In this document: piece by piece, positions 1-6,446 of the stretch
Layout of the letters: every line of letters starts with the position of its first letter
Numbering within the stretch: position 1 is the stretch's first letter
Assembly: GCF_003258595.1 (NCBI RefSeq)
Contig: NZ_QHHQ01000001.1
Location: forward strand, 1,488,001 to 1,552,000
DNA length: 64,000 nt
From: Acuticoccus sediminis
GTDB lineage: Bacteria; Pseudomonadota; Alphaproteobacteria; Rhizobiales; Amorphaceae
Direction of reading: 5' to 3'
Notes under the pieces: generated by a model
Told to the model about the DNA's origin: nothing
The model's database searches: none
The model's input: the letters and a program-made list of their open reading frames with translations, nothing else
Translations under genes and position numbers: made by a program

Positions 1-1757
1 CCGCCGGCCACAACGTCATCGTCAACGCGTCGCGCAAGGCGATCGCCGAGTTCGCGGCCCACGCCGCCCGCGTCGTCGTGGTCTCGATCACCGCCCCGCC
101 GGAGGTGGTTCGCGCGCGCCTCGAGGCGCGCGGGCGTGAGGACGCTGCGGACGTCGCCGCCCGCCTCGGGCGCCGCGTGCCGATCGTCGGGGCGCCCAAC
201 ATCGCCGTCATCGACAACGGCGGCGATCTGGAGGCCGGGGTCGCCCAGTTCGTTGCCGCCCTCATGGGCGCCGCCCGCCTGCCGCTCGTGCTGCGCCGCG
301 CGGCGGTCACGCTGCCCGGCGGCCCGGCGGCCTTCGTGCACCGCGCCGCGCTGCCGCTCGCCTCGGCGCAGCTCATCGCGGGAGGCGCGGCCGAGATCAT
401 CGCGGACCGGCCGTTGCGCGTGCGCCTCGCCGTCGCCGACGACGCAGGGCTCGTCGCACCGGACAGCATCGCGCTGCCGGCGGTGCTGTTCGACCGGCTC
501 GGCCTTGCCGAGGGGAGCGAGGTGGTGCTGCGCCGCGCGGTGCCACCCGCCAGCCGCGACGCCCTGCGCCGCAAGGTCGCCGGCGAGATCCTCGGCGTCG
601 CCGATATCGGCGACGTCGTGCGCGACATCGTCGGCGGCCGCTACAGCGACGCGGAGATCGCGGGCTTTCTGGTCGCGGCCGCGCGCCAGCTCACGGTGGA
701 CGAGATCGCGGCGCTGACCGTCGCCCGGGCGGAACTGGTCGAGCGCATCGCCTGGGACCGCGAGCTGATCGTCGACAAGCACTCGATGGGCGGCGTGCCC
801 GGCAATCCCATCTCGCTGATCGTGGTGCCGATCGTCGCGGCGCACGGGCTCCCCATCCCGAAGACGTCGTCGCGGGCGATCACGTCGGCGGCCGGGACGG
901 CGGACATCATGGAATGCGCCGCGCGGGTGGACCTGACGGCGGCGGACCTCCACCGCGTCGTCACCACGACGGGCGGCGCCATCGCCTGGGCCGGCCGGAT
1001 CTGCCACAGCCCGCTCGACGATGTGATGAACGCGATCAACCGCCCGCTCGGCATCGCGTCCGCGGGCCTCGATGTCTCGTCGATCCTCTCCAAGAAGCTC
1101 GCCGTCGGCGCCACCCACGTCGCGATCGACATCCCCGTCGGCCCCGCCGCCAAGGTGAAGACGGAGGCGAGCGGCCGGATGCTGGCCAACCTCTTCGAGG
1201 AGGTCGGGCGCGCGGTCGGACTGACGGTGCGGGCGGCGGTGAGTGACGGTCTCAGCCCCGTCGGCCGAGGCGTCGGTCCGGCGCTGGAGCACGAGGATGC
1301 GCTGGCGGTCCTTACCGGCCGGCCGGACGCGCCGGAGGCGCTGCGCGACAAGGCGCTGTCGGTCGCGGCGATGATCCTCGCCTGGGATCCGGCCGTCGGG
1401 CCCGGACAGGCGGCGGCGACGGCCGAGCAGCTCCTCCGCTCCGGTGCCGCGCTGGAGGCGTTCCAGGCGATCGCCGCCGCGCAGGGCCGCTTCGGCCCCT
1501 GCCGGCCGGGTCCTTTCACGCGCCCGCTCCTCGCGGTGCGCTCCGGCCGCGTCGCGGGGATCGACGTCTTCGCCGTCGCGGGGCTGGCGCGGGCCGTCGG
1601 CGCGCCGTCCGACAAGGGGGCGGGCGTACGGCTCCACGTCGCGCCGGGAGACGACGTGAGCGAGGGGGACGTCCTCGCGGACGTCGTCGCATCGAGCCAG
1701 AACGGCATCGACGTCATCCGCCCCACCGCCAGCACCGAGGTCTTCTCGCTCGCCTGA
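1..1757 (+). CDS. PhnN (ribose 1,5-bisphosphokinase)-AMP/thymidine phosphorylase fusion, 5' end outside window
   Basis: The reading frame is open from base 3, so the start and the PhnN P-loop lie before the window. The first roughly 85 codons match the end of PhnN, which makes PRPP from ribose 1,5-bisphosphate (motifs VIVNASR, ITAPPEVV, RLEARGRE). From about base 280 a complete nucleoside/nucleotide phosphorylase follows: an N-terminal small domain, the phosphate loop DKHSMGGVPGN near 770-805, IPKTSSRAITSAAGTAD near 855-905 and the C-terminal domain. The loop resembles archaeal AMP phosphorylase (HSxGGVPGN) more than E. coli thymidine phosphorylase. AMP phosphorylase releases ribose 1,5-bisphosphate, exactly the PhnN substrate, so a fusion makes chemical sense. 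The next gene is convergent 26 bases away. Both halves are recognised with good confidence; the nucleotide specificity is inferred. Confidence 0.85.
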   Translation, partial: AGHNVIVNASRKAIAEFAAHAARVVVVSITAPPEVVRARLEARGREDAADVAARLGRRVPIVGAPNIAVIDNGGDLEAGVAQFVAALMGAARLPLVLRRAAVTLPGGPAAFVHRAALPLASAQLIAGGAAEIIADRPLRVRLAVADDAGLVAPDSIALPAVLFDRLGLAEGSEVVLRRAVPPASRDALRRKVAGEILGVADIGDVVRDIVGGRYSDAEIAGFLVAAARQLTVDEIAALTVARAELVERIAWDRELIVDKHSMGGVPGNPISLIVVPIVAAHGLPIPKTSSRAITSAAGTADIMECAARVDLTAADLHRVVTTTGGAIAWAGRICHSPLDDVMNAINRPLGIASAGLDVSSILSKKLAVGATHVAIDIPVGPAAKVKTEASGRMLANLFEEVGRAVGLTVRAAVSDGLSPVGRGVGPALEHEDALAVLTGRPDAPEALRDKALSVAAMILAWDPAVGPGQAAATAEQLLRSGAALEAFQAIAAAQGRFGPCRPGPFTRPLLAVRSGRVAGIDVFAVAGLARAVGAPSDKGAGVRLHVAPGDDVSEGDVLADVVASSQNGIDVIRPTASTEVFSLA

Positions 1758-5675: not shown

Positions 5676-6446
5676 TCAGTTGGAGACCTTCTGCGCCACG
5701 GGGGAGACGCGCTCGAGGAAGCCGGTGAGGTCGTCGGTCACGTACTCGACGTGGGGGGCGTTCTGGCCCTCCATCTCCCACGACTCGCGGAACACCTCGC
5801 GCGTGCCCTCCGGGACGACGAGCACGGTGCGCATGCCCCGCGCGTGCGGCACCGCGAGGTTGCGCGACAGGTCCTCGAACATCGCCGCGCGCGTCGGATC
5901 GATGCCGTGCTTGTCCCAGAACCGGTTGTAGGTGTCGGCGTGGGGCTTGGGGATGAGGTCGGCGGCGACGATGTCGAAGATGTCCTCGAAATGGCCGTGC
6001 ACGCCGAGCCGCTGGGCGATCGCCAGGGCATGCGCGGTCGTGCCGTTGGTCATGATGAAGCGGCGGCCCGGCAGCGCCTCGATGGCGGCCGACAGGCGCG
6101 GGTTCGCCTCGATCTTCGAGTGGTCGATGTCGTGCACGAACTCCAGGAAGCCGTCGGGGTTGATGCCGTGCTCGACCATCAGCCCGCGCAAGGTGGTGCC
6201 GTAGCGCTTGTAGTAGTCCTTCTGCAGCGCCCTCGCGGCCTCCCGCTCCATGTCGAGGAGCTGGGCGACGAACTCGCTCATCTTCTGGTCGACCTGCGCG
6301 AAGAGGTCGGTGTGCGGCGGATAGAGCGTGTTGTCGAGGTCGAAGATCCACGTGTCGACCGACGCGAACGGCGCGAGGTCGCGCGGATTGGCGAGCGGGC
6401 TCTCCGACGGAAGGGGCGCTGCATCTTGGGGCATGGGGTGGGTCAT
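5676..6446 (-). CDS. Pyrimidine 5'-nucleotidase (HAD superfamily)
   Basis: A 256-residue HAD hydrolase of the pyrimidine 5'-nucleotidase group (SDT1/YjjG-like), expected to remove phosphate from pyrimidine nucleoside monophosphates. HAD motif I is IFDLDNTLYPP near residue 35 (nucleophile and acid/base aspartates), motif II is MTNG near residue 133, motif III the lysine near PKPHADT, and motif IV FEDLSRNL with its acidic residue. A helical cap (about 45-115) sits between motifs I and II. In Hyphomicrobiales this gene commonly neighbours argB and dapD, as here. Function is inferred from family. Confidence 0.85.
   Translation of the reverse strand: MTHPMPQDAAPLPSESPLANPRDLAPFASVDTWIFDLDNTLYPPHTDLFAQVDQKMSEFVAQLLDMEREAARALQKDYYKRYGTTLRGLMVEHGINPDGFLEFVHDIDHSKIEANPRLSAAIEALPGRRFIMTNGTTAHALAIAQRLGVHGHFEDIFDIVAADLIPKPHADTYNRFWDKHGIDPTRAAMFEDLSRNLAVPHARGMRTVLVVPEGTREVFRESWEMEGQNAPHVEYVTDDLTGFLERVSPVAQKVSN

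Follow-up and report, generated by a model that had tools for sequence, protein, structure and literature searches.

We identified, in a 64,000-nucleotide stretch of the Acuticoccus sediminis genome (here called the window; G000:C1:1488001-1552000), a gene that joins PhnN in frame to a phosphorylase of the AMP phosphorylase type and whose relatives in other bacteria lie downstream of nadC. The encoded protein probably combines two activities, those of a nucleotide phosphorylase and of a ribosyl 1,5-bisphosphate phosphokinase, both reactions being predicted from its sequence. The gene order, distribution, phylogeny and residue changes of the family are documented below. With a probability of about 0.55, we propose that such fusions served ancestrally in a NadC-linked cycle from quinolinate to nicotinate, with nicotinate mononucleotide (NaMN) as the putative substrate of the phosphorylase and catabolism as the presumed direction.

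On the + strand, frame 3 has no interruption between the first bases of the window and a stop codon at 1755-1757; positions 3-1757 make up the last 584 codons of a gene that extends beyond the window. Farther upstream on this contig (L003), the frame runs back to an ATG at L003 9670 (window position -330); the whole ORF comprises approximately 695 codons (window -330 to 1757), with its first 331 bases upstream of the window. The gene consists of the following parts:

L003 9670-10000, upstream of the window: P-loop half of PhnN; frame open there
1..267, + strand: C-terminal part of PhnN (ribosyl 1,5-bisphosphate phosphokinase), from TIGR02322, residues 67-240 of the 737-aa ORF; border approximate
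282..545, + strand: linker and apparent AMP-phosphorylase-type N-terminal domain, from the alignments with 4ga5 and 4ga4; borders approximate
555..1757, + strand: phosphorylase core to the stop codon (Pfam PF00591 and PF02885; NF003338; nearest solved structures 4ga4/4ga5)
777..905, + strand: KHSMGGVPGN ... KTSSRAITSAAGTAD segment, from the alignment with 4ga5 and 1brw
990..1046, + strand: candidate base-pocket segment with H446 and N454, from column comparison

The preliminary description of this DNA had proposed that a single uninterrupted frame holds a C-terminal segment of PhnN and a whole AMP-phosphorylase-like domain, with the PhnN P-loop to be expected upstream. Both proposals proved correct: the Walker A motif GPSGVGKDS is encoded in the upstream part of the frame, and the upstream and window sequences together exclude a stop or a new start between the two domains.

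The 737-aa ORF scored 180.4 bits against the PhnN model TIGR02322 (cutoff, 156), 521.3 against the subfamily model NF003338 (PRK04350; cutoff, 434) and 435.0 against TIGR02645 (cutoff, 434.6). The phosphorylase core exceeded the Pfam cutoffs for PF00591 and PF02885, with PF07831 just under its own (25.9 versus 27). Foldseek aligned an AlphaFold2 model of 695 residues (mean pLDDT, 89.3; pTM, 0.78) with AMP phosphorylase 4ga5 (503 columns; TMt, 0.89) and with 4ga4, the N-terminal deletion form of that enzyme (413 columns), a difference suggesting that the N-terminal domain of the AMP phosphorylase type is present in the fusion. The region equivalent to 282..545 is largely missing from the short Burkholderiales fusions (~590 to 600 aa), with a gap near query positions 250 to 340. 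Scores, model and fold match all indicate that PhnN comes first and that a complete AMP-phosphorylase-type phosphorylase lies behind it. Both the fold and the KTSSRAITS-type motif place the latter with AMP phosphorylase, and the segment at 777..905, which may hold the phosphate and 5'-phosphate sites, is common to AMP phosphorylase and unlike its counterpart in the pyrimidine nucleoside phosphorylase 1brw. AMP phosphorylase proper was rejected as an identification, given a TIGR03327 score of 391.6 bits against a cutoff of 535 and differing residues in the presumed pocket.

NCBIfam and the plasmid records name this family after thymidine phosphorylase. That the protein is an ordinary thymidine or pyrimidine nucleoside phosphorylase attached to an unrelated or inactive PhnN part is nevertheless highly improbable, and we rejected it: the scores of 117.5 for TIGR02643 (cutoff, 570.7) and 163 for TIGR02644 (cutoff, 409.05) fall far below these DeoA-/PyNP-type cutoffs, the motif is of the AMP phosphorylase type, and the P-loop residues are invariant across 29 aligned fusions.

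The two-domain architecture recurs elsewhere, with similar fusions in Alpha-, Beta- and Gammaproteobacteria. A fusion in one frame was found in 4 of the 385 genomes of the class sample and, in the order sample (297 genomes), in 7 of 8 members of the window's genus and two other genomes. Plasmid records contributed two further full-length fusions (Pacificitalea and Variovorax) and a third, from Paraburkholderia, found as two aligned pieces. A contig scan added at least 27 further named fusion loci (including L086, which is cut by a contig end) and the truncated L093. Both motifs lie in one frame in 40 of the 42 fusion loci tested, L086 being among the 40. At L076 and L085, the fusion is split over two frames by sequencing error or decay. 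The contig of L075 is labeled Flavobacteriaceae, and its locus is close to that of the alphaproteobacterial genome G381 (84% for the FRG gene and 89% for the TRAP gene); it is probably a misbinned contig.

A quinolinate phosphoribosyltransferase gene, nadC, precedes all 36 testable fusions of types other than the window's in the same orientation (33/33 plus L157, L159 and L160; L074, with only 136 bp of upstream sequence, was excluded from the count). The spacing between nadC and the fusion is 8 to 51 bp in 32 of 33 loci, as measured without L076, L085 and L093; the exception is L079, in which ~1 kb and another ORF separate the genes. In comparison with 597 kb of fusion loci, no nadC was found at 21 stand-alone phosphorylase loci (391 kb searched) or at 51 stand-alone PhnN loci (961 kb searched). 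The operon NadC of L057 exceeds the TIGR00078 cutoff (322.7 versus 198.4), with 1x1o as its nearest solved structure; those of L157, L159 and L160 score 318 to 330 bits, and the other operon copies also pass, except in G403 (contig end) and G392 (operon copy off the contig). The residues that we take to be the active-site residues of NadC are conserved in the operon copies.

The stand-alone proteins of NF003338, annotated as "thymidine phosphorylase family protein," are homologous to the phosphorylase part (L004 and L044 are 43% and 49% identical, respectively, to the window's protein in BLASTP), form a branch separate from all 41 fusion rows and have other neighbors. Across their loci (L004, L040-L056 and L060-L062), a beta-CASP MBL gene occurs at 17/21 and a Prs-like gene, which in L004 is a fragment, at 12/21; PhnN lies divergently beside the phosphorylase at 2/21 (L044 and L045). 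The window's genome carries such a stand-alone phosphorylase as its second copy, 43% identical to that of the fusion, with transposase matches upstream and a Prs-like fragment downstream. The matches at L004 3554-8815 (G000:C1 near 717 to 722 kb) are IS6-like and IS110-like, both below the cutoff.

Fusions and AMP phosphorylase share the HSxGGxPGN and KTSSRAITS-type motifs and differ at positions that may touch the base (441, 446, 454 and 457), as judged from aligned columns. Asn is present at position 454 in all 41 fusion rows and is invariant in A3 and A4; the 23 stand-alone rows and 4ga5 all have Ile there, and 1brw has Tyr. H446 occurs in 97% of the nadC-linked rows and in all window-type rows, this position being Leu in 19/19 and 3/4 members of two stand-alone groups and also in 4ga5. 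Position 457 is mostly Thr in nadC-linked rows, Asn in window-type rows and Glu in stand-alone rows and 4ga5, and N441 never varies among nadC-linked rows and is relaxed among window-type rows. Taken with nadC upstream and the nicotinate-catabolism-type genes described below, these changes in the presumed base pocket point to NaMN as the likely substrate.

The proposed cycle would comprise three steps. NadC would convert quinolinate and PRPP to NaMN, CO2 and PPi; the phosphorylase domain would split NaMN with Pi into nicotinate and ribose 1,5-bisphosphate; and the PhnN domain would use ATP to turn ribose 1,5-bisphosphate back into PRPP. The net outcome would be the decarboxylation of quinolinate to nicotinate, PRPP serving as an activating handle that is regenerated; Hnr or Nic routes would then degrade the nicotinate. 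The likeness of the fusion to archaeal AMP (NMP) phosphorylase (PDB 4ga4-4ga6) lies in the fold, apparently including the N-terminal domain, and in the HSxGGxPGN and KTSSRAITSxxGTAD motifs; the differences are its union with PhnN, the changed pocket positions, a score below the TIGR03327 cutoff and, among its relatives, the nadC neighbors. The accessible parts of the literature state that the Thermococcus kodakarensis AMP phosphorylase makes ribose 1,5-bisphosphate and outline the archaeal route (PMC9700705), whose end product is ribulose 1,5-bisphosphate, whereas PRPP would be expected for the fusion. The PhnN part resembles known PhnN in exceeding the TIGR02322 cutoff and conserving the P-loop, and differs in belonging to a fusion that is found mostly in nadC operons.

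The preliminary description had the fusion channel ribose 1,5-bisphosphate from nucleotide phosphorolysis into PRPP as a salvage route. A nucleotide phosphorylase handing ribose 1,5-bisphosphate to PhnN fits the present data; AMP salvage as its purpose fits poorly. General salvage, in which AMP, CMP or UMP would yield a base and PRPP, draws on the closest solved relative being an archaeal AMP phosphorylase that shares the KTSSRAITS-type motif, and on the retention of the fusion in NadC-less genomes of the window's genus (6 of 7). We nevertheless consider it unlikely, in view of the shortfall against TIGR03327, the presumed base-pocket residues that set the fusions apart, the nadC association in 36/36 testable fusions and the nicotinate-type genes at 8/34 loci, and nucleotide salvage is probably not the main role of the family.

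Evidence for a catabolic fate of nicotinate comes from the same neighborhoods. A gene for Hnr, NicX, NicC or a NicB-like cytochrome protein was found at 8 of 34 fusion loci (L063, L064, L071, L072, L078, L081, L085 and L088) and at 0 of 72 control loci; the remaining 26 fusion loci have none of these four markers within the fetched flank. Looser probes did match in controls (NicA-like, 1/21; Mo hydroxylase, 1/51, at 29%; Bug type, 2/51, at 33 to 34%). L063 contains a run of genes in one direction whose ends overlap or nearly touch, encoding an FAD subunit, a Mo/Fe-S hydroxylase, Hnr, a UPF0280 protein, NadC and the fusion, and L064 shows the same type of run from the hydroxylase onward. At L088, the genes ahead of nadC and the fusion encode a NicC-like monooxygenase, a 2Fe-2S protein and a cytochrome-bearing one, with NicX beside them; Pfam gives only cytochrome c domains and no Mo domain for the cytochrome-bearing ORF. 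All Hnr and Nic names are presumptive: Hnr was named from annotated plasmid records (68 to 71% identity), NicX of L088 from relatives at 83.5 to 83.8% annotated as 2,5-dihydroxypyridine 5,6-dioxygenase, and the other Nic genes from Pfam domains and likeness to the known pathway.

Genome-wide searches drew on named contig loci (22 of 28, without L064, L075, L084, L085, L086 and L093) and left the plasmid records aside. Hnr was found in 18 of the 28 genomes with a fusion of a type other than the window's (in G389 as two pieces). Among the 10 such genomes lacking Hnr, NicX was matched at 77 to 100% identity in 6, at 44 to 47% in 2 and at 33% in G393; G476 yielded neither Hnr nor NicX. The matches at 44 to 47% weigh little, because NicX-like matches of 36 to 50% also occur in genomes without a nadC-linked fusion (e.g., G423, G533 and G608; near 38% in the fusion-free G423 and G533) and the background sample covers Hnr only. 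In the class sample, Hnr is encoded by 4/4 fusion genomes, including the window's, versus 64/381 others (Fisher P = 0.0009, a value that overstates the association since fusion loci are not independent). The window's genome has an FAD subunit-hydroxylase-hnr-UPF0280 cluster in the order seen in L063. The gene neighbors in these relatives suggest that the fusion evolved to help bacteria eat quinolinate, a pyridine compound formed in tryptophan breakdown, by way of nicotinate. That bacteria would actually grow on quinolinate through nicotinate, with PRPP as a reusable activating group, we rate at even odds.

Another reading places the operon in NAD synthesis: a transporter and NadC would make NaMN from imported quinolinate, and the fusion would supply PRPP from other NMPs. 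Of the 28 genomes with a fusion of a type other than the window's, 12 encode NadA (one as two pieces below the cutoff), 16 lack it and 11 have a second NadC over the cutoff; both NadA and a second NadC are missing from 14. Our idea that every fusion genome has a second, canonical NadC therefore failed. In the 14 genomes with neither, the operon NadC could serve NAD synthesis, and quinolinate must come from elsewhere, by import or through the kynurenine route. In G395 and G528, NadA is present and the operon NadC is the only NadC, which suggests that the operon enzyme works on quinolinate.

NAD synthesis is also how the accessible parts of PMC11452294 (2024) interpret a neighborhood in Variovorax and Jezberella in which bug27 lies beside nadC and phnN; they report that Bug27 and Bug69 bind quinolinate, Bug27 in vitro. 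L058 and L068 show nadC, the fusion and a Bug-type gene, and the Variovorax neighborhood is very likely the same operon as that described here. That paper, as far as its accessible text goes, treats phnN as PhnN alone, and its main text contains no match for "phosphorylase," "fused" or "catabol." Weighing against NAD synthesis are the second NadC in 11/28 genomes, the nicotinate-catabolism-type genes at 8/34 loci with the same run in L063 and L064, and the argument, which is not one from data, that trace NAD synthesis would hardly need a dedicated phosphorylase-kinase. On balance, we hold this reading to be improbable. PMC10142695 bears on the nicotinate loci only through a title cited in its accessible part. 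The literature searched, mostly in forms short of full text, describes neither the fusion nor the cycle, and an earlier mention in a review of ribosyl 1,5-bisphosphate is possible.

Other genes recur in the fusion loci. Transport genes are of the TAXI and TRAP types at 8/34 loci and of ABC types at others, and a Bug/TctC-type gene directly follows the fusion in L058, L068, L069, L079 and L085. FRG-domain genes lie near nadC and the fusion at 10/34 loci (L037, L058, L059, L067, L068, L075, L080, L083, L088 and L089) and a SIR2-like gene at two more (L038 and L078), each versus 0/72 controls; they are perhaps linked to NAD or to defense. A MarR-type regulator family is present at seven loci (L059, L063, L071, L072, L075, L078 and L089; Pfam MarR for the L071 member) and could regulate the module. 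An RNA regulator was rejected, as no Rfam family reached the gathering score in eight loci, and scans for promoter and terminator patterns in L003 9300-11900 found nothing. A role in phosphonate metabolism was rejected as well, no phosphonate gene having been recognized by eye in the neighborhood gene lists. Elsewhere in the window, positions 5676-6446 of the - strand encode what we take to be a HAD-type hydrolase resembling pyrimidine 5'-nucleotidase, near a dapD-like gene.

The fused protein of the window shares ancestry with the nadC-linked fusions. In the phosphorylase tree (built without L086 and L093), a 100/100 branch separates all 41 fusion rows from the rest, and the six window-type rows nest among nadC-linked fusions in a 12-row clade (100/99), with L157 as their sister (98/78). 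The PhnN tree (built without L085 and L093) retains the 12-row clade (94/86) and divides the fusions into two groups, the larger of which includes the stand-alone row L138; L078 joins stand-alone rows at an open fork. Weaker than the phosphorylase tree, the PhnN tree is compatible with a single fusion event and with several.

Six members of the window's genus carry the fusion behind petABC, without nadC (petBC in L156, where the contig ends). NadC is absent from 7 of the 8 sampled genomes, 6 of which keep the fusion, and NadA was found in 0/8. The window's genome gave no NadC match, and hence no nadC upstream of the fusion, with a probe that was positive in 12 of 14 control genomes. The simplest explanation is that nadC was lost from its place next to the fusion in the window's lineage. 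The cycle as written therefore cannot run in the seven genomes without NadC; partnership with NadC would be the ancestral role of the fusion and the window's copy a side branch. We favor NaMN, or a pyridine nucleotide like it, as the substrate of this copy too, with lower confidence than for the nadC-linked fusions; with nadC gone from the genus, its substrate may also be an ordinary NMP.

If the proposed cycle is correct, an enzyme of NAD synthesis has become the first step of a degradation pathway in which PRPP acts as a recyclable carrier, and a group of genes now called PhnN or thymidine phosphorylase is misnamed. The nadC-fusion operons would then provide a directly testable gene set for bacterial quinolinate breakdown and would represent a bacterial use of ribose 1,5-bisphosphate beyond the phosphonate and RuBisCO pathways.
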